A stretch of DNA of 23,613 nucleotides from a virus (IMGVR_UViG_3300027996_000168:1-23613), one strand, 5' to 3'; shown: positions 1-23,527, counted from the stretch's first letter. Program-made: numbers and translations. The notes: generated by a model not told the origin, from the letters alone.

Positions 1-16
1 TAACGTTCTGTCTATG
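1..16 (+). repeat. 5'-arm motif of the cassette-end repeat (cut by window edge)
   Basis: The window opens with TAACGTTCTGTCTATG. It has the same 16-base layout (TAACG, seven variable bases, then TATG) as sites following several small genes downstream. Whatever gene precedes it is outside the window. No good 3' arm pairs with it before the next start codon at 55, so it is either a half site or a degenerate one. The call rests on its resemblance to the copies at 352, 706, 1025 and 1545. Confidence 0.35.
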
Positions 17-54
17 TTTAGTGCGGAATAACTGATAACCTAAAAACGTGAAAG

Positions 55-354
55 ATGAATAAAGAAGATATAGTTAAATTACTAATGTGGCTAGGTGACT
101 GTCACGGAATGGATAACAGAGAACACGCAGAGAAAGTAGCTGATAACTACATAAGCGAGAACGAACCTAAAGCATTAAATATAGACCTTGTTATATGGCG
201 ATGCTCTCAGGATTTATTTATGGATGACGGCAGGAAAATATTCACAAAAGGCAAAGAATACAAACAAGTAGACCCTAATCGCAAATGGGCTTATGACGAT
301 GAATTAGAGGAACACGGTTTTGGTGAATGGGAAAAATATTTCATTGCCATATAA
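55..354 (+). CDS. hypothetical protein, 99 aa, first gene of the cassette-like array
   Basis: An ATG-started ORF of 99 residues that I do not recognise. It is acidic and aromatic-rich, with no signal peptide, membrane segment or cysteine motif. The N-terminal third (IVKLLMWLGDCHGMDNREHA) looks helical. The C-terminal third is rich in charged and aromatic residues and ends in EWEKYFIAI. The stop codon TAA (352-354) is at the same time the first three bases of the repeat motif TAATGACTACGCTATG, an arrangement seen again at 706, 3191 and 3992. It stands alone between two repeat sites rather than in a tight operon. It is likely an accessory early phage gene; no function can be assigned. Confidence 0.75.
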   Translation: MNKEDIVKLLMWLGDCHGMDNREHAEKVADNYISENEPKALNIDLVIWRCSQDLFMDDGRKIFTKGKEYKQVDPNRKWAYDDELEEHGFGEWEKYFIAI

Positions 355-437
355 TGACTACGCTATGAATCGTAGCAAGTAGAACAGTAAGAAGTTAAAC
401 AGAACATTCAGCTATGATTTTATAGCGTTTGTTATAA
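349..437 (+). repeat. attC-like imperfect hairpin with long apical region
   Basis: The 5' arm TATAA (350-354) pairs with TTATA (432-436), and CGCTAT (361-366) pairs with ATAGCG (422-427). An internal loop of six against four bases separates the two helices. The 55-base apical region holds a further small hairpin, CTACG (358-362) with CGTAG (371-375), which competes in part with the main stem. The stop codon of the upstream gene is in the 5' arm, the 3' arm ends in GTTATA, and the next ORF starts 11 bases later. There is no U-tract, so it does not look like an intrinsic terminator. Confidence 0.45.
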
Positions 438-447
438 AGATTTTATT

Positions 448-708
448 ATGAAGTGTTATAAAACATATAATTTAATGCCAATAGTATCGGCTGACGTAAT
501 AGGGGAGGATAATGGTTATTACTACCACATTGACCCATTTAATTACAGAGCAAAAAAAAGGTTTAAGTTTAATGAAAACAGAAACAATGTCGTTTATCAT
601 AAATCATACAAAGACGCTAAAAAATATTTAACAAATGAAATTAATAGAAAACTACAATCCTTAGAAAGTAGTAAATTAAAATTAGAGGGGATTCTTAGTT
701 CTTTATAA
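448..708 (+). CDS. hypothetical protein, 86 aa
   Basis: An ATG-started 86-residue ORF, basic and tyrosine/asparagine-rich, of unknown family. Residues 20-45 (GEDNGYYYHIDPF and onwards) suggest a beta-rich N-terminal half. The C-terminal half, with KKYLTNEINRKLQSLESSKL near residues 53-72, is predicted helical. There is no membrane segment or metal motif. The stop codon TAA (706-708) begins the next hairpin. Position and size match the other single-gene units in this array. Probably an early accessory phage protein; function unknown. Confidence 0.7.
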   Translation: MKCYKTYNLMPIVSADVIGEDNGYYYHIDPFNYRAKKRFKFNENRNNVVYHKSYKDAKKYLTNEINRKLQSLESSKLKLEGILSSL

Positions 709-753
709 CGTGTTGTGTATGAGGGCGTTTTAATGCCTTATACACCGTGTTAG
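706..753 (+). repeat. attC-like imperfect hairpin
   Basis: The 5' arm starts TAACGTGTTGTGTATG and continues AGGGC. The 3' arm is GCC, TTATACACC, then GTGTTAGC. TAAC pairs with GTTA at the base, GTGTAT pairs with ATACAC in the middle, and GGC pairs with GCC near the tip, with a few unpaired bases on the 5' arm. Extrahelical bases on one arm and TAAC/GTTAG ends are the layout of integron attC sites (known family property); calling this attC-like is inference. The stop codon of the preceding gene is the first three bases. No poly-U follows. Confidence 0.55.
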
Positions 754-790
754 CATTTGTACGGATTATTAAACTAAAAAATTAAATAGA

Positions 791-1015
791 ATGGGAAAAT
801 CATGTAATTGTACTCATTGTGTAAATTATGAACTTTATAAATGGGCAGTTGTAATGGAATGTAAATGTGGATGCCATACAGGGGACGGAATGACTGGGCA
901 TGATGGTTTATGTTGCTCGTTACCGAATGGACTAAAGAAAAATAACCCACATAAAAACCTTAAAGAAGCTAAGTATTATAAGGAAATATTAGATAAGTGG
1001 GAAAATGAAGTTTAG
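791..1015 (+). CDS. small cysteine/histidine-rich hypothetical protein, 74 aa
   Basis: A 74-residue ORF with eight cysteines and several histidines in its first 45 residues: CNCTHC near residues 5-10, CKCGCH near 24-29, and CC at about 42-43. This suggests a zinc-binding or otherwise metal-structured N-terminal domain, followed by a lysine-rich helical tail. I cannot match it to a named zinc-ribbon or knuckle family with confidence. It is a lone gene between two repeat sites, with a leader carrying ACGGATTA 30 bases before the start. A nucleic-acid-binding or inhibitor role is possible, but that is only an inference from size and cysteines. Confidence 0.7.
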   Translation: MGKSCNCTHCVNYELYKWAVVMECKCGCHTGDGMTGHDGLCCSLPNGLKKNNPHKNLKEAKYYKEILDKWENEV

Positions 1016-1024
1016 TATTAATGC

Positions 1025-1060
1025 TAATGACTGCGGTATGTTTAGAAATTTTAACGGATT
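1025..1060 (+). repeat. 5'-arm motif plus leader motif, degenerate cassette-end site
   Basis: TAATGACTGCGGTATG (1025-1040) has the 16-base layout of the other cassette-end sites. It is followed by TTTAG and then TAACGGATTAA (1052-1062), a leader pattern also seen near 31, 761, 1571 and 6311. No matching GTTAG-type 3' arm is present. An alternative pairing of ATTAATGCT (1017-1025) with AGCAATAAT (1064-1072), eight of nine bases, could form a stem ending at the next start codon, but it may be chance. Confidence 0.35.
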
Positions 1061-1072
1061 AAAAGCAATAAT

Positions 1073-1306
1073 ATGAAAGAGTTAGATGAAGTGTGCCTGT
1101 TTTGGCAAAGATGGGTATGTAAGCCTGAGCAGGAAAAATTCAGAGGTAAAGAATTGAAGATCGATGAAATGTGGTTGTTTGCTAAAAACTACCACGAAAA
1201 CGAGTTAAAATTATTAAATATACCGCCTGTTGTAGGTAGTTCCATCGATTCTGAGAAATTAGCTAGGATAGAAAAGAAAATAGACGAGGTTTTAGGTAAA
1301 TTATAG
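1073..1306 (+). CDS. hypothetical protein, 77 aa
   Basis: An ATG-started ORF of 77 residues, unrecognised. The N-terminal half is tryptophan-rich (LFWQRWVCKPEQEKF at about residues 9-23, EMWLFAKNYHE at about 32-42). The C-terminal 20 residues (SEKLARIEKKIDEVLGKL) form a short amphipathic helix or coiled-coil, suggesting oligomerisation. There is no signal peptide. The stop TAG lies about five bases before a well-formed hairpin. It is a lone gene within the cassette-like array. Function unknown. Confidence 0.7.
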   Translation: MKELDEVCLFWQRWVCKPEQEKFRGKELKIDEMWLFAKNYHENELKLLNIPPVVGSSIDSEKLARIEKKIDEVLGKL

Positions 1307-1310
1307 AATT

Positions 1311-1365
1311 ACCTACAACGTGTAGGCTAGAATACGTTTCAATGTATATTTAGCCAATGTTAGGT
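1311..1365 (+). repeat. attC-like imperfect hairpin
   Basis: The 5' arm ACCTACAAC, GTGTAGGCTA, GAATAC pairs with the 3' arm GTATATTTAGCC, AATGTTAGGT. ACCTA-AAC pairs with GTTAGGT (one extra C on the 5' side), GGCTA pairs with TAGCC, and a short AT helix closes a small loop at about 1337-1342. The terminal GTTAGGT fits the known attC R' consensus GTTRRRY, and the 5' end fits its complement apart from one inserted base. This is the best attC match in the window. It lies between a gene stop (1306) and a short ORF starting at 1389. Confidence 0.55.
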
Positions 1366-1388
1366 TTTAGTTAAAAAAATTTAAAGAT

Positions 1389-1541
1389 ATGAGTAATTTA
1401 ATAATAAACATAAGATTTTGGTATTGGCACTTTCAATTAGAACGTGGGTTTAAAAATATGCATTGGGGTAAAAACTCCTACTTCGTAAAAAATGGGTTAA
1501 AAGGATATAAGAAAATTGAAGTATTAAATTTCTTTAATTAA
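1389..1541 (+). CDS. small hypothetical protein, 50 aa
   Basis: A 50-codon ORF starting ATG at 1389 and ending TAA at 1539-1541. It begins MSNLIINIRFWYWHFQLERG and ends EVLNFFN. It is strongly basic and aromatic-rich, with five tryptophan/tyrosine/phenylalanine residues around positions 10-15. It occupies the single-gene position between two cassette-end sites, as its longer neighbours do, which is the main reason to believe it is a real gene. Function unknown; it could also be a decayed fragment. Confidence 0.5.
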   Translation: MSNLIINIRFWYWHFQLERGFKNMHWGKNSYFVKNGLKGYKKIEVLNFFN

Positions 1542-1544
1542 ACC

Positions 1545-1599
1545 TAACGTTTAATCTATGGTGTCGTGGCTACCTGATAAAAACCACAAAATTACAAAC
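1545..1599 (+). repeat. degenerate cassette-end hairpin
   Basis: TAACGTTTAATCTATG (1545-1560) matches the 16-base 5'-arm layout and starts four bases after a stop codon. GTTT (1549-1552) can pair with AAAC (1596-1599), AAT (1553-1555) with ATT (1591-1593), and GTGG (1566-1569) with CCAC (1584-1587). The pairing is weaker than at 706 or 1311, and no GTTAG end is present. TACCTGATAAA (1571-1581) resembles the leader motif found after other sites. Confidence 0.35.
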
Positions 1600-1615
1600 A
1601 CTTAAAAATAAACTT

Positions 1616-1870
1616 ATGAAAAAGGAAACAATCAATATCAAAAAGCCATGCACTATAGATAGTGTTAGCAAACGTTACTTTATAGTAGTATATGTGGCTA
1701 GTGTGGTTAGGGGAACAATTACAGGTAACTTAGATGTAACCACAAACGGTGAATATCTAAATAGAGAATTGACAACAAAAAACATTAAAGACAGCATAGA
1801 ACAAGATTGCTCAGATATTGTTGTTACAAACATAATTGAGCTTAATGAAAGAGATTATTGCTGTTGGTAA
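1616..1870 (+). CDS. hypothetical protein, 84 aa
   Basis: An ATG-started ORF of 84 residues without a recognised family. Alternating hydrophobic stretches (RYFIVVYVASVVRGTITGNL near residues 20-39, and SDIVVTNIIELNERDY near 66-81) suggest a small beta-rich soluble fold. The protein ends in CCW. No clear transmembrane helix or signal peptide is present. It is the last single gene before the 75-bp repeat that opens the DNA-processing block. Function unknown. Confidence 0.7.
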   Translation: MKKETINIKKPCTIDSVSKRYFIVVYVASVVRGTITGNLDVTTNGEYLNRELTTKNIKDSIEQDCSDIVVTNIIELNERDYCCW

Positions 1871-1880
1871 CCTAATGTTT

Positions 1881-1955
1881 GCTAACACATCGCTAGACGT
1901 AACAAAAGATACCAAACAAAGGTTTTAGGTTGTTGAGAGTGGTTTGTTGTGGTAT
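1881..1955 (+). repeat. 75-bp direct repeat, copy 1
   Basis: The first 36 bases (starting GCTAACACATCGCTAGACG) are identical to 3990-4025. The next 22 bases diverge, and the last 17 (GTGGTTTGTTGTGGTAT, 1939-1955) match the other copy at 14 of 17 positions with no indel. The segment ends with TGTGGTATC (1948-1956), which can pair with GATACCA (1908-1914). It starts with the cassette-end pattern TAACACATCGCTAGA. It lies between the cassette-like array and the HNH gene. Confidence 0.8.
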
Positions 1956-1971
1956 CTTTAAATAAGTAATT

Positions 1972-2256
1972 ATGAATACATATAGTACAGATAATGGAGA
2001 AAGGTTTACTACCTCTCAAATAGAGTCTAAAGTTAGGAAGGCTAAGGAAGAAAAAATTAACGGGTTTATAGATGAACACGGTTATGTATTCTGTGAGGAG
2101 TGTGGAGTTAATTCGTCTAATACTCGTATAGATTGCAGTCACGACATTAGCGTAAAGAAAGCCAAGGAAACAGGTCAAGCTCAGCAATGTTATAATGTGA
2201 AGAACATAACGCTACTATGCCGTCGATGTCATCAATTAAAAGATAAATTATACTAA
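1972..2256 (+). CDS. HNH-like endonuclease
   Basis: A 94-residue protein with the layout of small phage HNH nucleases. A first zinc-type pair CEEC (residues 41-44) is followed by H57 in the segment IDCSHDISV, then N79, and a second pair CRRC (83-86) followed directly by H87. The two CxxC pairs probably hold a structural zinc around a beta-beta-alpha-metal active site. HNH proteins of this size nick or cut DNA in packaging, recombination or homing (family knowledge). The gene overlaps the RusA-like gene by one base (TAATG), so the two are probably co-translated. The product is not certainly catalytic: the exact general-base histidine cannot be fixed by eye. Confidence 0.7.
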   Translation: MNTYSTDNGERFTTSQIESKVRKAKEEKINGFIDEHGYVFCEECGVNSSNTRIDCSHDISVKKAKETGQAQQCYNVKNITLLCRRCHQLKDKLY

Positions 2257-2582
2257 TGATAGTACATATAAAACCTCTATCAGTTAATGAGTGTTGGAAG
2301 GGTAGAAGATTTAAGACCGATAAATACAAAGCTTACATAATACTATTAATGAGTAAGCTTAGTAAGGTAGATATTCCTAAAGGTAAATTAATGCTTACAG
2401 TAACTTGGGGCTTAAGTTCTAAGAATGCAGATTGGGACAACCCTATTAAGCCGTTTCAAGACATACTACAATTGAAGCACACCTTCAACGATCGATGGGT
2501 TTATAAAGCTATAATTGAAAAGGTGGACGTTAAAAAAGGAGATGAGTTTATAGAATATAAAATAGAGAGTTATGATATATGA
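2256..2582 (+). CDS. RusA-like Holliday junction resolvase
   Basis: A 108-residue protein of the usual RusA length (about 110-130). It carries the signature ADWDNPIKPFQDIL at residues 58-71, corresponding to the family D-x-D-N-x-x-K-x-x-x-D-x-L pattern with acidic residues D59, D61 and D69, and a following D79 in FNDRW where the family has a further metal-binding aspartate. RusA enzymes are dimeric and cut four-way DNA junctions symmetrically; in phages they resolve recombination or replication intermediates before packaging. The start ATG overlaps the HNH stop codon, and the end overlaps the next gene by 11 bases, indicating one operon of DNA-processing functions. Confidence 0.8.
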   Translation: MIVHIKPLSVNECWKGRRFKTDKYKAYIILLMSKLSKVDIPKGKLMLTVTWGLSSKNADWDNPIKPFQDILQLKHTFNDRWVYKAIIEKVDVKKGDEFIEYKIESYDI

Positions 2583-2985
2583 TTTAAGTAATCAAATAGA
2601 TAAAAACAAAGCATCATATAAATTAGATCAGCTAATAAAGAATGATAAGGTTATTGAGCTTACTGAAAAGAGAAAAAGTAAAACGGTACCACAGCTTAAA
2701 TACTTACACGTGTGCATAGACTTATACGCTATTGAGTCAGGTTACACTAGAGAGGAACAGAAGACTGAACTTAAAAGGATATGCCCTTGGATGAGGTACG
2801 AAAAGAATGGTTCTATATTCTTAATAAGCTGCGCAAACTTAGACACTGAACTAATGACTGATTTTATAGATTTTGTTAGAACTAAAGCTGGTTTAGATGG
2901 TATTTACATACCTACATCTGAAGAGTATATAGCCAACAAGATCAATATAGATAAAGAGATAATTAGAAATAAGTTATATCTGTAA
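2572..2985 (+). CDS. NinB-like recombination-associated protein
   Basis: A 137-residue protein. The segment TVPQLKYLHVCIDLYAIESG (about residues 38-57) and the following GYTREEQKTELKR, then LMTDFIDFVRTKAG and IPTSEEYI near the end, follow the pattern of NinB/Orf-type phage proteins (repeat-helix region, then a short helix and a P-T/S-x-E tail). In lambda this family binds single-stranded DNA and assists RecBCD-independent recombination. The assignment rests on remembered sequence pattern only. It overlaps the RusA-like gene and closes the HNH-RusA-NinB operon. A putative promoter for the next gene starts just after its stop. Confidence 0.5.
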   Translation: MIYDLSNQIDKNKASYKLDQLIKNDKVIELTEKRKSKTVPQLKYLHVCIDLYAIESGYTREEQKTELKRICPWMRYEKNGSIFLISCANLDTELMTDFIDFVRTKAGLDGIYIPTSEEYIANKINIDKEIIRNKLYL

Positions 2986-3000
2986 TGTTTTTTAAGTAAA

Positions 3001-3008
3001 TACTTTTG
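3001..3008 (+). promoter_or_regulatory. candidate Bacteroidota -7 promoter box
   Basis: TACTTTTG matches the Bacteroidota sigma-70 -7 consensus TAnnTTTG and lies 30 bases before the ATG at 3038, in a 52-base AT-rich gap. No convincing TTG-type -33 box can be placed about 20 bases upstream, so support is moderate at best. Confidence 0.35.
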
Positions 3009-3037
3009 TTTATTAAATTAATTCACTATCATTGTGT

Positions 3038-3193
3038 ATGGAAGAGATTAAAGAAATACAAATAACATTTTCTAAGTTAAAGTTAAAGTTGATTAACGAA
3101 GGTTTAAGTGATTTTGATTTACAATGTAAATTAGGCATACTATCCAATTTAGAGATTTTGTGTATACGAAAGATAAATAGTTTATTGAGCTAA
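3038..3193 (+). CDS. small hypothetical protein, 51 aa
   Basis: A 51-codon ORF from ATG at 3038 to TAA at 3191-3193. The product is lysine/leucine-rich and probably mostly helical (KEIQITFSKLKLKLINEGL, then LQCKLGILSNLEI). No domain is recognised; the pattern fits a small regulator or antagonist, but this is not evidence. It has its own candidate promoter, and its stop codon is embedded in the 5' arm of the next hairpin, the same layout as the first small genes of the window. Confidence 0.55.
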   Translation: MEEIKEIQITFSKLKLKLINEGLSDFDLQCKLGILSNLEILCIRKINSLLS

Positions 3194-3243
3194 CGTTTAA
3201 ACTAGACAGCGTATTTTTATATGCTGTTTTAGTTAGTGTTAGC
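3189..3243 (+). repeat. attC-like imperfect hairpin upstream of the methyltransferase gene
   Basis: The ends are perfectly complementary: GCTAAC (3189-3194) and GTTAGC (3238-3243). Inside, ACTAGACAGCGTAT (3201-3214) pairs with ATATGCTGTTTTAGT (3219-3233) through two G-T pairs and one extra base, with a loop of about four T residues. The stop codon of the 51-aa gene lies in the 5' arm. The motif TAACGTTTAAACTAGA fits the 16-base layout of other sites. The next gene begins 37 bases later. Confidence 0.6.
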
Positions 3244-3280
3244 CACAGTACTACAACCACAGAACTAAATAGATTACATT

Positions 3281-3994
3281 ATGAAATATATGGGAAGTAA
3301 AAACAGATTCGCTAAAGAACTGTTACCAATAATACTAAAAGATAGAACACCTGATCAATGGTATATTGAGCCAATGGTAGGAGGTGCTAATATGATTGAT
3401 AAAGTAGAGGGTCATAGATTAGGTGCAGATTTTAACGAGTACTTAACTGAAATGTGGACAGCCTTAACTGATGGATGGACACCAAAAGAACACTATACAA
3501 AGGATGAGTATATTGATATTAAAAACAGCAAAGAAAACTACCCTAAATACTTAGTTGGGTATGTTGGTATAAATTGCAGTTATAGCGGTAAATGGTTTGG
3601 AGGATATGCTGGGATTACGCAAACAAAAGGAGGCGTAAGAGACTACCAAAAAGAAGCATTCAAGAATGTAACCAAGCAATTGAAAAATTTGAGAGATGTT
3701 ATCTTTAAATACAGCGATTATAAAAACCTAACAATCCCAGACAATAGCATCGTTTATTGTGATCCACCATACGAGGGAACTACCAAATACAAAGATGGGT
3801 TTAATCATACTGATTTTTGGGATTGGGTAAGAAACAAAGCAAAACAAGGACATAAAGTATTTGTAAGCGAATACAAAGCACCTGAAGACTTTGTTTGTGT
3901 ATGGAGCAAACAAGCAAAAAGCAGCTTAAGTGCTAATGGTAAAATTGGAGGTAATAAAATAAGTACCGAAAAACTATTTACGTATTGTGGCTAA
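3281..3994 (+). CDS. DNA adenine methyltransferase, D12 class (Dam-like)
   Basis: A 237-residue N6-adenine methyltransferase. KYMGSKNRF at residues 2-10 is the usual D12 N-terminus. YIEPMVGGANM (28-38) is motif I, which binds S-adenosylmethionine. VYCDPPYEGT (158-167) is motif IV with the catalytic DPPY at 161-164. The length is slightly below Dam/DpnM (about 270), with a shortened target-recognition region. Phage enzymes of this type methylate adenines in a short sequence, often protecting phage DNA from host restriction. The recognition site cannot be read from the sequence. The gene has an attC-like hairpin upstream, and its stop TAA (3992-3994) is inside copy 2 of the 75-bp repeat, so it sits like a single-gene cassette. 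Confidence 0.85.
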   Translation: MKYMGSKNRFAKELLPIILKDRTPDQWYIEPMVGGANMIDKVEGHRLGADFNEYLTEMWTALTDGWTPKEHYTKDEYIDIKNSKENYPKYLVGYVGINCSYSGKWFGGYAGITQTKGGVRDYQKEAFKNVTKQLKNLRDVIFKYSDYKNLTIPDNSIVYCDPPYEGTTKYKDGFNHTDFWDWVRNKAKQGHKVFVSEYKAPEDFVCVWSKQAKSSLSANGKIGGNKISTEKLFTYCG

Positions 3995-4064
3995 CACATC
4001 GCTAGACGTAACAAAAGATACCAAAACGTTGTTTGGTAAATATAAAGGTGGTACATTGTGGTAT
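3990..4064 (+). repeat. 75-bp direct repeat, copy 2
   Basis: The first 36 bases are identical to 1881-1916, and the final 17 (GTGGTACATTGTGGTAT, 4048-4064) match copy 1 at 14 positions in the same register. Between them, TACCAAA (4019-4025) and TTTGGTA (4032-4038) form a perfect 7-bp stem with a 6-base loop. In copy 1 the corresponding bases differ. The methyltransferase stop codon is at its start, and the start codon of the next gene (4063) overlaps its last bases. Confidence 0.8.
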
Positions 4065-4320
4065 GATTACAAAGTGGATAATAGGTATAAAAGGATTAGA
4101 AGATTACCGATTCAATAAAGAGGGAGAATTGTATAAAATGCCATTTAATAGGAATAAAAGAAATTACGGGGTTAGATTAATTAAAATGCAAGACCCTAAT
4201 AGATGGAGGATGTACAACACTTATTCACAGAAAGAAGAGTGGTACAGTAAAACGCAATTGAGTAATAAGTTAATTGAGGATGAGAACCCAATAATATTAC
4301 CCCAAGACACCCCATTTTAA
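4063..4320 (+). CDS. NUMOD4-like protein, possible homing-endonuclease remnant, 85 aa
   Basis: I chose ATG at 4063 instead of the in-frame TTG 30 bases upstream, because the upstream codons lie inside the 75-bp repeat. The N-terminus (KWIIGIKGLEDYRFNKEGEL) resembles the NUMOD4 pattern W-x-x-I-x-G-x-x-x-Y-x-x-x-x-x-G of HNH homing endonucleases. The later segment RMYNTYSQKEEWYSKTQLSN resembles the following DNA-binding module. No HNH catalytic part follows, so the protein is either a stand-alone DNA-binding domain or a truncated homing nuclease. It borders the structured non-coding region at 4346-4452. Confidence 0.45.
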   Translation: MITKWIIGIKGLEDYRFNKEGELYKMPFNRNKRNYGVRLIKMQDPNRWRMYNTYSQKEEWYSKTQLSNKLIEDENPIILPQDTPF

Positions 4321-4345
4321 AACATTAAAGATAAAAGTCGAAGTA

Positions 4346-4452
4346 GTAATTCTAACCTACCATAGTTAGGCTATTTCATCCCAAGTGGGGCACTCACTCC
4401 ACTTGGTCGTCACAGAGAAGTATGAAGGGGTAGAATTGAGAAGCTGCCCCTT
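4346..4452 (+). ncRNA. candidate structured RNA element with alternative folds
   Basis: This non-coding gap contains strong inverted repeats. CCAAGTGG (4381-4388) pairs perfectly with CCACTTGG (4399-4406), extendable by a G-T and a G-C pair to ten pairs with a 6-base loop. GGGGTAG (4427-4433) pairs with CTGCCCC (4444-4450). CTAAC (4352-4356) pairs with GTTAG (4365-4369). AATTCT (4348-4353) can pair with AGAATT (4432-4437), which excludes the GGGGTAG hairpin, so two mutually exclusive folds exist. It sits 19 bases before the ATG at 4471. It could be a leader/attenuator, a terminator (only TTATTA follows, a weak U-tract) or a small RNA. I do not recognise a known family. Confidence 0.4.
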
Positions 4453-4470
4453 ATTACAAAACAAGAAATT

Positions 4471-4752
4471 ATGTCATTTTATAACACTATACACTTACCT
4501 AAAGACTTACTTATTGAAAGGTTAAAGAAGGTTAAGAAGCAGGAGTTAAAAGTATTAGCAGTATTTCAGATAGCTCTAGATATTTACCTGTCTCCTGCGG
4601 ATGTATATTTTGCTTTAGATAAAGTTTATCCTATGACAAGTATAAGGAGGGGGGTTACAAACCTTACAAATAGAGGTAAGCTAGTTAAAACAAAAACCCA
4701 GAGGATGGGTATGTATGGTACAATGAATTATTGTTGGAAACTAAATAAATAA
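4471..4752 (+). CDS. putative winged-helix DNA-binding protein, 93 aa
   Basis: A 93-residue basic protein. Residues 20-55 (KKQELKVLAVFQIALDIYLS and following PADVYFALDKVYPM) look like the first helices of a winged-helix domain. SIRRGVTNLTNRGKLVKT (57-74) looks like the recognition helix and first wing strand: an S-x-R-R-x-[IV]-x-x-L-x-x-x-G-x-L pattern common in small phage replication or regulatory proteins. It ends in a beta-like YGTMNYCWKL. It starts the tight six-gene run up to 5932 and follows the structured leader, so it may be regulated by it. The DNA-binding role is inferred from pattern only. Confidence 0.55.
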   Translation: MSFYNTIHLPKDLLIERLKKVKKQELKVLAVFQIALDIYLSPADVYFALDKVYPMTSIRRGVTNLTNRGKLVKTKTQRMGMYGTMNYCWKLNK

Positions 4753-4759
4753 TAAAATT

Positions 4760-5101
4760 ATGGTAGAGGAAAGAAAATTATTATTAATAAGTAATGACGA
4801 GCAGGGGAAGTTTATTTTAAATGAAGCATCTAAACTTATCGGTAAAGAGTCTGTTTGGTTTGATATCATAACTCATATACTAGCGGGGGATAATTGGAGG
4901 TTTATTGATTATGAAGGGGAACACGGTTTTGATTATCAACTACATGATTTAGTCCAAGATATAGAGGAATTTGATAAGATATTAGATTTCGTTAGGTTTG
5001 TAATGAACTATTCCTTAAGAATGGAATACTATGAGGTGCTTAATAATGCAACGTTGATACATTCTGATATGATAGAGGTAAGAGGGTGTTATTACCTATA
5101 A
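4760..5101 (+). CDS. hypothetical protein, 113 aa
   Basis: A 113-residue acidic ORF starting seven bases after the winged-helix gene. The N-terminal 25 residues are beta/helix mixed (KLLLISNDEQGKFILNEASK). The middle (HGFDYQLHDLVQDIEEFDKI, about residues 55-74) is strongly acidic and helical. The tail ends RGCYYL. There is no membrane segment and no catalytic motif that I can name. Tight spacing suggests co-transcription with its neighbours. Function unknown. Confidence 0.65.
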   Translation: MVEERKLLLISNDEQGKFILNEASKLIGKESVWFDIITHILAGDNWRFIDYEGEHGFDYQLHDLVQDIEEFDKILDFVRFVMNYSLRMEYYEVLNNATLIHSDMIEVRGCYYL

Positions 5102-5979: not shown

Positions 5980-6279
5980 ATGGCATTCGTAAAAGGTAAA
6001 AGTGGTAATCCTAAAGGTAGAGTTGAGGGGTCTGTAAATAAGAAAACAGCAGCTTGGAACGAAATTGGTGAGTGGGTAACTGGTGAGGGTATCGAGATAT
6101 ACAAAGCAAATTTAAGATCTCTAATGGGATCAGAGGACGAAGACATTAAACTTAAGGCTATGGATAAGTTCAATGCGATCATAGAGTTTTTTAGACCTAA
6201 GCTTGCTAGGACTGAGCTAATAGGTGACGATAAGAAGCCTTTGAGTATAGAGATTAATAAAACATATGATAAGGAATGA
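5980..6279 (+). CDS. terS: terminase small subunit (candidate)
   Basis: A 99-residue protein whose start, KGKSGNPKGRVEGSVNKKTA (residues 5-24), matches the S-G-N-P-x-G-R-x-x-G-S-x-N-K signature of DUF5681-type small phage proteins found next to large terminases. Residues 50-75 are helical (MGSEDEDIKLKAMDKFNAII) and fit an oligomerisation region. Small terminase binds phage DNA and delivers it to the large subunit for cutting and packaging. The usual order terS-terL is kept, but two small ORFs lie between them. The upstream gap has TATATTTATTG (about 5950-5960), close to a Bacteroidota -7 box. Confidence 0.65.
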   Translation: MAFVKGKSGNPKGRVEGSVNKKTAAWNEIGEWVTGEGIEIYKANLRSLMGSEDEDIKLKAMDKFNAIIEFFRPKLARTELIGDDKKPLSIEINKTYDKE

Positions 6280-6286
6280 GGTTTCT

Positions 6287-6320
6287 TACAACGTATGGTT
6301 GTATGAATAGTAACGGATAA
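6287..6320 (+). repeat. cassette-end-like site between terS and terL
   Basis: TACAAC (6287-6292) and GTTGTA (6298-6303) form a perfect 6-bp stem around GTATG. CAACGTATGGTTGTATG (6289-6305) is a 17-base variant of the 16-base motif seen after the small genes at the left end. It is followed by TAACGGATAAAC (6311-6322), the same leader pattern as after 1052. There is no GTTAG-type 3' arm. It begins eight bases after the terS stop, in the same relation to the gene as the left-end sites. Confidence 0.4.
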
Positions 6321-6342: not shown

Positions 6343-6492
6343 ATGTACAAAATAAAAACAAATTACGGAGCGACACACCAATATATTGAAAGTTGGAAAG
6401 AATGGGGATTAGATAAAACATTTATAGAATTTAAACAATCTGGTGATTTGTTGATTATACACAAAAGCCAAATTTTAACAATCTATAAGTAG
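6343..6492 (+). CDS. small hypothetical protein, 49 aa, inserted between terminase genes
   Basis: A 49-codon ORF from ATG 6343 to TAG 6490-6492. The product starts MYKIKTNYGATHQYIESWKE and ends IIHKSQILTIYK. It is basic and aromatic-rich, with the look of a small mixed alpha/beta protein. It is preceded by a cassette-end-like site and leader motif, so it resembles the single-gene units of the left end. No family recognised. Confidence 0.5.
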   Translation: MYKIKTNYGATHQYIESWKEWGLDKTFIEFKQSGDLLIIHKSQILTIYK

Positions 6493-6731: not shown

Positions 6732-8061
6732 TTCTAACTAAAAAGCAGACCGCCGCCTTAGATTATCTCGAAGATTCGGAAACGAACGAGCTACTCTTCG
6801 GCGGCGGGTAATTGGCGCAGGTGGCGCAAAGTCTTTTCTTGGTTGTTTGTGGATCATACTAAGCTGTTTAAAGTACGATGGAACTAGATGGGTAATAGGT
6901 AGATCTAAATTAAAGGCGTTAAAGGAAACAACTTTAAACACGTTCTTTGAGGTAGCAAAGATTCTAGGGATGAAAGCGGGTGAACATTATTTGTATAACG
7001 CTCAAGCATCAACGATAGACATTGGCAATAGTCAAATAATACTTAAAGATTTATTTCATTACCCGTCAGATCCAGAGTATGATTCATTAGGTTCTCTTGA
7101 AATTACAGGAGCTTTTATTGATGAGTGTAATCAACTAAATGTTAAGGCTAAGGAAATACTTAAATCTAGGATTAGATACAAGCTAGAAGAGTTTGATTTA
7201 ATACCTAAGATGTTACTTACTTGTAACCCTGCTAAGAATTATGTATACACTGATTATTATAAACCTAGTAGAGATGGTACTTTGCCAAAGCATAAGAAGT
7301 TCATACAAGCACTAGCAACTGACAACCCTAATATATCACCTCATTACATAGCTAACCTTAAGACGTTACCTAAGAACTCACAAGAGAGGCTTCTTTATGG
7401 TAACTGGGAATATGATGACGACCCTTCTAGGCTTATGGATATTGAGTCCATCACTGATATATTCACTAATGACTTTGTGGATGAAGGTGTTGGTTATATT
7501 ACGGCAGATATTGCAAGGCTTGGAAAGGATAGAACTGTGATAGGTGTCTGGTCTGGGTTTAGGTGTATTAAGATTGTCACTATTGATAAGGGAACTTTGG
7601 ATGAGGTCGCTAAGGTTATTGAGGCATTAAGGATTAAGTACAAAGTAACTAAGTCGCACACCATTTTAGATGAGGATGGACTAGGTGCAGGAGTTAAAGA
7701 TATGCTTAAGTGTAAAGGGTTTATTAACAACTCTAGAGCTATAAAGATTAAGGGTAAAGATGTGAACTTTTCTAACATCAAAGCTCAATGTTATTTTAAA
7801 TTAGCTGATGTAATTAATGATGGGTTACTCTATATTGATTGTAGTGAGGTTGAGAAGGATTTGATTTCTTCTGAGCTGGAAGTGGTTAAGATGAGAGATA
7901 TGGACAAGGATACTAAACTCAATATCCTAGATAAGGCTACGGTAAAAAGTTTAATAGGTAGGTCTCCAGATTTCTCTGATATGATTATGATGAGAATGTT
8001 TTTCACTCTTAGTGGTGGAGGTTTTAAGGCTGCTAGAAGTAGTAGTTTATCAAGAAGATAA
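6728..8061 (+). CDS. terL: terminase large subunit with frame break in the Walker A region
   Basis: Two frames together make a complete large terminase. Frame 1 (6728-6808) gives 27 residues ending NELLFGGG, then TAA at 6809. The -1 frame from 6811 continues IGAGGAKSFLGC and runs to 8061. In that frame: Walker B GAFIDEC with D at 7120 and E at 7123, coupling motif LLTCNP, and a nuclease domain with aspartates in ITADIARLGKDRT (7507), TILDEDGLG and SPDFSDMIMMR. TerL powers DNA translocation with its ATPase and cuts concatemers with its nuclease. As printed, no single frame encodes the ATP-binding loop. Removing eight bases (such as 6809-6816) would give LLFGGGAGGAKSFLG, a normal-looking loop. 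The cause could be sequencing error, true inactivation or recoding. Confidence 0.85.
6750..6807 (+). repeat. GC-rich inverted repeat at the 5' end of terL
   Basis: CCGCCGCC (6750-6757) is the exact reverse complement of GGCGGCGG (6800-6807), around a 42-base middle that itself can fold: CTCG with CGAG, and TTCG with CGAA around a GAAA loop. The codons here (GCC, CTC, TCG, TTC, GGC) are unlike the AT-ending codons elsewhere in the window. The right arm ends two bases before the stop that interrupts terL. Confidence 0.7.
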
Positions 8062-19116: not shown

Positions 19117-20115
19117 ATGAGTATGAAGACGATTAGGATTGATGGTATTGTAGGTGACTTACTTAACACAGCGGACGGCTTTAAAGCTAGAGTTGCTGAG
19201 TTAGATTTATCTGATAAAGACGATCTTAAGGTTGTTGTAAACTCTCAAGGTGGAAGTGTTTTAGAGGGTTATGGAATATATAATTTCTTAAAAAACCTAG
19301 ATAACGAGGTGTTTATTGATATAGATGGATTTGCAGGATCAATTGCTACATTAATATCTTTGGCTACTAAGAAGGAAAACACTTCTATTAGTGAGGTTTC
19401 AATGTTTATGATTCATAGAAGTTCAGTAACAGCAGAAGGGAATCAAGAGCAGCTGGCTAGTCAGATAAAGATTCTTGATTCAATAGATAACACTTTAGCA
19501 TCTGTTTATTCAGAGAGGACTGATATCCCTAAAGATACTATCACAGAAATGATGTCCAAGGAGACTTGGTTGAGTGGAGCTGATGCAGTTAAGGCTGGAT
19601 TCATAGGAAGCTTGAGTAATAAGATTTCAGCCGACGTGGTTGCGCGAGTATATAGTAAACAAATAAAAGAGAATATGAATTTAGTAGAAAAAATGATGTC
19701 TTCTTTTAAAGCTGAGGCTGAAGAAGAGAAGAAAAAAGAAGAAGAAACTGTTACGGCTGAGGCTAAAGCAGAAAAAGACAAAGAAGATGAAGAAGCTAAA
19801 GCTGAATCTACAGTTACAATGGAGGCATTTACTCAATTAGTTGAGGCAGTAGCTAAATTGTCAGCTAAACTAGATGAAGATGACGAAGTAGCTGAAACAG
19901 ACGAAGAGATTGAGAAGAAGAAAGAATTAGAGGAAGAAGAAATGAGTGCTGTTATTTCTGCGGAAGTAGAGGCAAAAGTTAAATCTACAATCTTAAACTT
20001 AAAAGCTTCTAAGGGACTTGCTCCAGTAGGAATTACAAAAGAGCCTGTAGCAGTGAACGCATTCACAGCACACAGAGCAAGACAAAAAGAAATCGAAAGC
20101 AAAACAAGACTTTAA
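19117..20115 (+). CDS. ClpP-type prohead protease with scaffold-like C-terminal half
   Basis: A 332-residue protein. The first ~180 residues form a ClpP-fold serine protease: oxyanion strand VVNSQGGSV (40-48), nucleophile Ser75 in GFAGSIATL, His100 in FMIHRSS, and KETWLSGADAV (148-158) with Glu149 where ClpP has its third residue, as in other phage members. Residues ~190-290 are highly charged (long E/K runs) and helical, as in scaffolding proteins. An in-frame ATG at 19675 (residue 187) could give a separate scaffold of 146 residues, like lambda C/Nu3. The protease matures the prohead and removes scaffold. The gene precedes the capsid gene by 12 bases. Confidence 0.85.
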   Translation: MSMKTIRIDGIVGDLLNTADGFKARVAELDLSDKDDLKVVVNSQGGSVLEGYGIYNFLKNLDNEVFIDIDGFAGSIATLISLATKKENTSISEVSMFMIHRSSVTAEGNQEQLASQIKILDSIDNTLASVYSERTDIPKDTITEMMSKETWLSGADAVKAGFIGSLSNKISADVVARVYSKQIKENMNLVEKMMSSFKAEAEEEKKKEEETVTAEAKAEKDKEDEEAKAESTVTMEAFTQLVEAVAKLSAKLDEDDEVAETDEEIEKKKELEEEEMSAVISAEVEAKVKSTILNLKASKGLAPVGITKEPVAVNAFTAHRARQKEIESKTRL

Positions 20116-22180: not shown

Positions 22181-23527
22181 ATGTCATTAGCACTAAATAA
22201 AACACTTATTAAAAGAATCTCTGTACAAGTAGATTACAGAGATGATATTTCGTGCTATGGTATTGACAATCTTTATCCTCAGAGAGTTGAAGAGATTGCG
22301 TTTAGGTCACCAATAGCGACAAGGTGCCTTGCTACGTTAAGTGATTTTCTAGAGGGTGGTGGCTTTATTGATAACGGTGATTTTGTTGTGAATAGAGAGA
22401 GGCAAACTCTTAATGATTTATTAAGGGAAGTTACTTTGGATGACGCTAAGTTTGCAGGGTTTGCTTTACATATTAACGTTGATGAAATTGGTGGAGTCAC
22501 TGAGATTGCAAGGGTAAAATTTAAAGATGTCCGTTATGGATTACCTAATAGATTTGGACGGATTGAAGACGTTAAAGTAAATGTGAACTGGGAAGAAGAT
22601 TATAACAAATCTACATACCATTCAAGAGATATATTCCCTTTTCCATTATGGAGTAAAAGAGATACTTACGAGATTGAGGATATTGAAGAGTTTTCAGGTT
22701 ACATTCTTTATTGGACTCCAGAGAAAAATATGTATCCTAAATGTACCTTTGATAGTTCTTTAGATTCAGTCCAAACTAATGGAGAAATTCAGGTTTTTGA
22801 GATTGGGTCTTTACAAAATTCATTCTTAGGGACAACAATATTTAAGCAGCAGGGAGAAATTGAGAGTGAGGATGACGAGCAGATACTAGTGAATGAGTTA
22901 GCTCAATTGACTGGAGCAGAAAATGCTGGGTCTGTAATGGTCGTAAATGTACCTGAAGGTTTTGATGGTGATATATTAGAGCAGATACCAGCTAACAACA
23001 ACGATCGTTTATTTGAGCTTACAAACAAGACCTCTGAAAATAGAGTAGTTTATACGTTTGCGGTTCCAAAGGCTGTGCTAGGCATTGAACCAGAGAGTGG
23101 AATGTTTAATGTGGAGCAAGAGGAGACAGCTCATAACTCTTACAACACCCGTACACGAAAAAGAAGGGCTTCAATAGCTAAGGTTTTTGATGATATATTA
23201 GGTAATTGGCACACTGGGGCTATGTCTATAGGAGGAATTAAGGAACAACCTTTCGGAGTGTTAGCGGATGTGGAAGTTGAAGAGGATGTTGAAGTTGAGG
23301 AAGGTGAAGAGATTAAAGAGGATACACCTGATGGTGATAAAGTAAAACCTAGTGTAGAAGAGAAGATACAAAAAGAAACTAGTTTCAATGGGGCGCAAAT
23401 AACGTCAGCACTTGATATCATGAGCCGAGTATCTTTAGGTGAATTAAGTAAAGAGCAGGGAGTTGAATCATTAATGGAGTTTTTGAGATTATCAGAGGAA
23501 ACAGCTATAAAATTATTAACTAAGTAA
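22181..23527 (+). CDS. portal protein
   Basis: A 448-residue protein. The N-terminal part (DNLYPQRVEEIAFRSPIATR, residues 27-46, then LATLSDFLEGGGFID) is the typical start of Bacteroidota portal proteins, followed by the wing/stem region and a helical stretch with RVVYTFAVPKAVLGIEPES (about 287-305) and NVEQEETAHNSYN, which fits the clip/stem part. The C-terminal 80 residues are very acidic (VEVEEDVEVEEGEE) and end in a helix. Portals form a dodecameric ring at one capsid vertex where terminase docks and the neck attaches. The gene overlaps the next start by one base (TAATG). Confidence 0.75.
   Translation: MSLALNKTLIKRISVQVDYRDDISCYGIDNLYPQRVEEIAFRSPIATRCLATLSDFLEGGGFIDNGDFVVNRERQTLNDLLREVTLDDAKFAGFALHINVDEIGGVTEIARVKFKDVRYGLPNRFGRIEDVKVNVNWEEDYNKSTYHSRDIFPFPLWSKRDTYEIEDIEEFSGYILYWTPEKNMYPKCTFDSSLDSVQTNGEIQVFEIGSLQNSFLGTTIFKQQGEIESEDDEQILVNELAQLTGAENAGSVMVVNVPEGFDGDILEQIPANNNDRLFELTNKTSENRVVYTFAVPKAVLGIEPESGMFNVEQEETAHNSYNTRTRKRRASIAKVFDDILGNWHTGAMSIGGIKEQPFGVLADVEVEEDVEVEEGEEIKEDTPDGDKVKPSVEEKIQKETSFNGAQITSALDIMSRVSLGELSKEQGVESLMEFLRLSEETAIKLLTK

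Follow-up and report, generated by a model that had tools for sequence, protein, structure and literature searches.

Integrons, both class 1 and chromosomal, are tandem arrays of one-gene cassettes with imperfect attC hairpins that carry AAC and GTT cores; one arm is cut at G^TT, the two ends of a cassette are complementary, and an attI site lies beside the recombinase gene. The recombinase IntI possesses an additional domain that serves to define intI (PMC2426708) and has been called essential for integron function (PMC8138268). In Treponema-type integrons, intI is transcribed toward attI (PMC3607928), and with IntegronFinder 2 Salinibacter ruber was the only member of the Bacteroidetes with a complete integron (PMC9024848). 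In phages, clusters of attC sites lacking an integrase (CALINs) were described by Qi et al. 2023, including in virulent phages; one such site, P12002L_attC2, recombined with attI1 through IntI1, and integrons or In0 elements also occur on temperate phages (Vibrio, P1, Shewanella). The available portion of that paper (PMC9892861) describes neither a lineage of phage recombinases nor inverted cassettes nor an attC arm that is translated. The present analysis concerns a linear virus record from IMG/VR, IMGVR_UViG_3300027996_000168:1-23613 (23,613 bases in its entirety; hereafter the window), from a phage whose related sites point to a host in the Bacteroidota. Its left arm very probably carries two integron-like platforms of inverted one-gene cassettes, moved by a tyrosine recombinase. 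Arrays of this kind share the integron features listed above, with the cut deduced from the sequences, and differ in that the genes are inverted relative to attC, the phage-side recombinase lacks the IntI additional domain, the end complementarity spans about 10 bp, and strict RYYYAAC/GTTRRRY boxes are rarely present.

The anatomy discernible in the sequence is that of two arrays on the plus strand. The sequence-only reading had proposed a single cassette-like array across positions 1–4064; arrays are present, but only at 1–1883 and 3192–3992, with 1884–3191 forming a fixed backbone. Each platform would be a row of one-gene cassettes closed by an attI-like site (at 1881 and 3990), and a cassette is predicted to begin at a cut, AAC|G, within the 5′ arm, to continue through the hairpin, a leader and the gene, and to end at the next site's AAC. 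The four hairpins named in that reading are real, with coordinates refined to 352–437, 706–754, 1316–1364 and 3191–3243, and it correctly saw that the upstream stop codon overlaps the 5′ arm motif at 352, 706, 3191 and 3992. The sites it took for half versions, at 1, 1025 and 1545, are whole, with the 3′ arm inside the next open reading frame (ORF; GTT at 190, 1229 and 1664).

The pairing of cassette ends separates a mobile unit from a transcription signal. If a unit circularises, the flank that follows its hairpin should pair with the flank preceding the next hairpin, whereas a terminator should pair with its own left flank. In the window, all seven cassettes pair end to end over 6–7 contiguous bp beyond GTT/AAC, compared with at most 3 bp for the own flank, and among 5,040 matchings of the ends only the true one attains the observed sum. 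The same holds for 131 adjacent pairs of viral sites, some of them near-copies: runs of at least 6 bp occur in 51 pairs and in none for the own flank, and the mean run is 3.56 bp, against 1.53 for the own flank and 1.50 after shuffling. Where adjacent sites fail to pair, another site may lie between them undetected. In the Flavobacteriaceae, arrays on the chromosome follow the same trend (9 of 28 versus 1). The ends of a cassette share a private complementary stretch of about 10 bp (GTTN7/N7AAC), from which it follows that an excised circle would hold one complete attC-like hairpin; such circular intermediates would be expected if the cassettes move as units.

That the hairpins are instead transcription terminators or RNA processing sites punctuating a small-gene operon was also raised in the sequence-only reading. 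They do fold and stand between genes, and attC sites are thought to be weak terminators (PMC9892861). However, a local stem would run on into its own flanks, and here the 3′ flank finds its partner beside the hairpin that comes next; gene content switches exactly at AAC; and in three of the seven window sites the 3′ arm lies within a gene. The explanation is therefore hardly credible, and a role as terminators or RNA elements only was rejected on the strength of the end pairing and the breakpoints described below; Rfam at its gathering threshold gave no match in the window.

Comparison with a relative, the 32-kb contig IMGVR_UViG_3300023112_000063 (G001), as the sequence-only reading had advised, reveals exchange of whole units. 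The two phages are 98.9% identical over 1881–3199 and 98.1% over 3990–4762, and between these conserved blocks the window has one methyltransferase cassette where G001 has three different cassettes. Homology ends at 3199, in GAGCTAACG, and restarts exactly at 3990, GCTAACACATCG, so that other genes occupy the space between the same AAC boundaries; at the left, homology begins at base 1881 and the genes before it differ. The attI-like sites at 1881–1916 (GCTAACACATCGCTAGACGTAACAAAAGATACCAAA, right end of array 1) and 3990–4025 (right end of array 2) are exact repeats. The first 23 bases of this sequence recur in three further copies in G001, each at an array end, and it terminates all five arrays seen in the window phage and G001.

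Of 66 points at which homology between viral loci breaks off, not all of them independent, 24 fall within 12 bp of the start of the 5′ arm (0.9 expected) and 6 lie near the end of the 3′ arm (1.1 expected). Because of this clustering the cassette boundary is placed at AAC|G in the 5′ arm, not in the GTTAG of the 3′ arm as had been anticipated. Judged from the sequence, AAC|G corresponds to the G^TT of the attC R′ box read on the other strand, and end pairing together with the 5′ arm breakpoints suggests that the cassettes are excisable units bounded at an R box. Homologous recombination between like hairpins, with no site-specific recombinase involved, could also shuffle genes, and the hairpin sequences, which are sometimes almost identical among cassettes, would aid it. 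It predicts breakpoints anywhere in the hairpin, at odds with 24 at the 5′ arm start and 6 at the 3′ arm end, and leaves the matched private ends of each cassette unexplained; we regard it as very improbable. Exchange unit by unit at exact boundaries, combined with end pairing, bears out the proposal of a cassette array of attC-like hairpins, in which a tyrosine recombinase would join AAC|G sites so that cassettes are gained and lost.

Such a recombinase is encoded beside homologous arrays in related phages, which favours the suggestion that a phage tyrosine recombinase mobilises the cassettes, the adjoining gene being found in relatives only. A PF00589 recombinase is encoded in 7 of 50 viral records carrying the motif, and in all of these first seven contigs the array comes first, with the recombinase gene downstream of it and on the same strand. 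The seven proteins, aligned and used as query (A2), retrieved more than 450 viral relatives. At 78 further recombinase loci, 189 sites were found, all on the strand of the recombinase and nearly all upstream of it (167 sites in 54 loci after removal of duplicates). Locus L356 (9894–10611) is the sole case among the 78 with sites downstream of the recombinase; its two attC-like sites are perhaps a second array. A conserved attI, AACTATTATATATA, precedes the recombinase start, and the variable cassette ends stand before it. Within the 90 bp before the gene, the pattern AACN3-6TATAT occurs at 60 of 67 phage recombinases (2.5 in shuffled sequence); a second AAC at a fixed distance in attI is weakly supported. 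In related phages the recombinase gene stands directly 3′ of the array, its start being preceded by attI at a distance of about 54 bp. This recombinase would do the work, acting on a folded strand, and the arrays of the window would be served by a recombinase that is encoded in another part of the genome or acts in trans.

The units could in principle be moved by a single-strand (HUH/Y1) transposase, or by some other enzyme that recognises hairpins, as the hairpins are single and the target is short and fixed, much as in elements of the IS200/IS605 type. In those recombinase-bearing contigs where the model finds sites, a tyrosine recombinase is encoded directly 3′ of the array, which makes this remote, though no systematic search for HUH enzymes was made.

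By sequence, the phage recombinases are nearest to XerA, with IntI next. XerA/Xer proteins (4a8e, 5hxy) are the nearest solved structures and likewise have a simple catalytic core without an arm-binding domain; the phage proteins differ in adjoining cassette arrays and in forming a clade of their own, apart from the host XerC/D-type. In the tree, 66 phage recombinases group together (support 100/98) to the exclusion of Xer and the host relatives; IntI1 and the four phage proteins that diverge most are on long branches, and their placement is not firm. The spacing from the K motif to HxxRH has a median of 62 residues in the phage proteins and 64 in the host relatives, compared with 106 in IntI1 and 72 in Xer proteins. 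The IntI additional domain is absent, as judged from this spacing (about 62 versus 106 residues in IntI1); the alignment to IntI4 splits at 180/258. A PF03237 terminase is present on 13 of 50 recombinase-bearing contigs, which reach 310 kb in size.

The phage cassettes are inverted with respect to those of integrons. The ORF following a viral site is in the sense orientation relative to the hairpin in 104 of 107 cases. Fetching viral loci by the leader motif favours inverted cassettes. The recombinase-anchored set is free of this bias and gives the same answer, with the gene after attC in 162 of 165. The classical layout, to which the sequence-only reading had compared the locus, therefore does not apply. 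In the Flavobacteriaceae, by contrast, the following ORF is antisense and the gene stands before attC in the classical manner in 43 of 44, and the host recombinase points at the array, along the direction of the cassette genes. This host arrangement is shared with the Treponema type, from which the present system differs in lacking the additional domain and, in its phage version, in flipping both int and the genes. In phages, the genes follow attC and point to attI and the recombinase, the reverse of classical cassettes. The geometry of attI and attC is retained in phage arrays, with genes and recombinase both turned round. Phage cassette genes would be read from promoters outside the array; their direction would accordingly be that of the phage operon, at whose distal end new cassettes would be inserted. 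Several Flavobacteriaceae chromosomes (L274–L282) carry the same attC family with a recombinase relative of about 300–437 residues and no canonical IntI; these arrays give the impression of a class of Bacteroidota integrons that has been under-reported.

Among the described systems, a canonical integron would be recognised by an attI beside the recombinase, an IntI-family integrase and genes before attC; the first was found in relatives, and the latter two were not. The window fragment literally matches the definition of a CALIN (at least two attC sites, no integrase), yet attI-like sites close both arrays. Its arrays could be ordinary CALINs moved in trans by the canonical IntI of the host, the phage having just acquired host cassettes. 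This is consistent with the lack of a recombinase in the window, with the CALINs of virulent phages and the activity of one P12002L attC with IntI1 (PMC9892861), and with the sites of the window's family in P12002L, which carries five. However, phage cassette genes are inverted relative to host cassettes, so that the phage did not merely acquire the latter; in related phages a recombinase gene of their own adjoins attI; and among 21 Flavobacteriaceae genomes that bear arrays no canonical IntI (TIGR02249) scored above the curated cut-off, on which ground an IntI proper in these hosts was rejected. The CALIN explanation is accordingly unlikely, if less so than the other alternatives. Bacteroidota phages, including large ones, probably have an integron lineage of their own, with an XerA-like recombinase without the additional domain, its own attI, inverted cassettes, some coding attC sites, phage-to-phage exchange, and a pool apart from host arrays.

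Several observations weigh against platforms moved by such a recombinase. As the sequence-only reading had noted for the window, no tyrosine recombinase is encoded in its 23,613 bases, nor in G001, both being fragments. The attI-like site of the window has CTAGAC in the L-box where recombinase-bearing phages have TATATA, and may therefore belong to another recombinase. Strict RYYYAAC/GTTRRRY sequences are present in one of seven window sites on each side, with the AAC/GTT cores present in the hairpins. With the additional domain missing, a mechanism on folded attC is not guaranteed. Finally, the covariance model of the sites (R2, 28 training sequences) favours sites resembling its phage training examples, so that counts of divergent sites are lower bounds.

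Some attC arms encode protein. Among 224 distinct viral sites, 33 have an ORF that begins within the hairpin loop; 16 of the 33 carry the GTT core in frame, mostly as V-S (LNIGA|VSSS, FAIHG|VSSS, TIDS|VSK), the peptide being encoded by the 3′ arm (GTTAGC = V-S). Unrelated cassette proteins at L324, L299, L335, L350, L307, L102 and window position 1545 have a common N-terminal VS-containing peptide. A recombination site can hence impose a shared N-terminal tag on unrelated cassette proteins.

The individual cassettes of array 1 are as follows. Cassette A (1–352; left end possibly cut off by the contig end) has its 5′ arm at 1–21 and its 3′ arm at about 168–193 inside the ORF at 55–354, where it is translated as ALNIDLVIW; ATATGGC after GTT190 pairs 7/7 with the bases before AA353. 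Cassette B (353–706) comprises the attC-like hairpin 352–437, whose arm duplex (−13.8 kcal/mol) is equalled by none of 300 shuffles, and the ORF 448–708, with 7 bp of end pairing. Cassette C (707–1025) comprises hairpin 706–754, the leader GTACGGATTA and the ORF 791–1015 (59 bits with R2, E value 1e-14; end pairing 6 bp). Cassette D (1026–1316) has a long-looped site (1025–1234), its 3′ arm inside the ORF 1073–1306, an inverted repeat at 1033–1055/1204–1226 (87%) and 7 bp of end pairing. Cassette E (1317–1545) comprises the attC-like hairpin 1316–1364 and the ORF 1389–1541 (35.5 bits, 6e-8; end pairing 6 bp; inverted repeat I2), and cassette F (1546–1883) the site 1545–1669, with its 3′ arm inside the ORF 1616–1870 (36 bits, 4e-8; end pairing 7 bp; inverted repeat I4). 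Array 2 consists of cassette G (3192–3992), with hairpin 3191–3243 and a D12 adenine methyltransferase ORF at 3281–3994 (PF02086, 5e-13; 46.8 bits; end pairing 7 bp).

Applied to the 23.6 kb, R2 recovered the sites at 706 (1e-14), 3191 (4e-11), 1545 (4e-8) and 1316 (6e-8), with no further matches; of these, 706, 1316 and 3191 are training sequences and 1545 is not. A covariance search of this kind, which the earlier reading had recommended, thus retrieved four sites and missed 352, which has a long loop. Arm pairing is distinctive at 1545 (0 of 300 shuffles as good) and 1025 (1 of 300). At site 1 (37 of 300), 706 (66) and 1316 (118) arm pairing is not distinctive in itself, and these sites consequently rest on the model, the end-pairing test or both.

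The backbone between the arrays (1972–3193, plus strand) encodes NinG/HNH-like (1972–2256), RusA-like (2256–2582) and NinB-like (2572–2985) proteins and a small ORF (3032–3193); the family matches are weak (PHROG NinG 9e-5, PHROG NinB 1e-4, Pfam RusA 5e-4, under its cut-off). Other phage genes are a terminase-like protein (6847–8061), whose relatives are abundant across viral contigs, a Clp-type protease at 19117 and a weak portal match at 22181; tRNA-type att sites were not found in the window. At 4320–4470, a G+C-rich hairpin, CCAAGTGGGGCACTCACTCCACTTGG, is followed by GAATTGAGAAGC..CCCC ahead of the ORF at 4471, and a similar GAATTGAGAAGC..CCCC stretch lies at about 5195–5225 of L001; the window element is possibly a phage RNA leader. 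At 6250, homology to G001 ends, and the next small ORF (6343–6492) is missing from G001. The degenerate site that had been proposed at 6287 gained no support, as R2 gave no match and no matching end was seen; its AAC motif may be a decayed cassette site.

The 3′ arm and leader pattern TGTTAGCNNNNGTACGGATTA matched 110 stretches of viral DNA, of which about 85 are genuine; a set of 84,980 species, each represented by one genome, gave 5 matching stretches. About 25 viral contigs (L100, L101, L103, L109, L114 and some 20 more) were set aside, as an unrelated coding family (gtaatttattggggatcgtggcata...) fits the pattern by coincidence and has no cassettes. An earlier model, R1, with the R-box pairs offset by one column, underlies the counts for terminase relatives, the seven contigs, P12002L and the Flavobacteriaceae; the window scores are nearly equal with R1 and R2 (59.2/59.3 and 46.7/46.8 bits). 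The covariance model found just two sites in 567 kb of terminase relatives; the array therefore does not travel with the terminase lineage, and close terminase relatives were rejected as its source. It found five sites in the 20.7 kb examined of the Polaribacter phage isolate P12002L; of 251 genomes from the Flavobacteriaceae, 65 had sites.

In the open literature searched, which included few subscription papers or preprints, no account was found of this phage recombinase lineage, of the uniform inversion or of coding attC sites. Phage mosaicism is well known; within that literature, a dedicated site-specific system for swapping single genes is apparently new for Bacteroidota phages. Integron-like behaviour would here come from a recombinase in which a domain regarded as essential is missing, and the inversion between phage and host makes it testable how expression and the cassette entry point set orientation. 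The swapped accessory genes include methyltransferases and many small unknown genes; the cassette system would account for the fast variation of these regions, and lets the accessory genes of the phages be delimited exactly. It seems that these phages have their own machinery for swapping genes.

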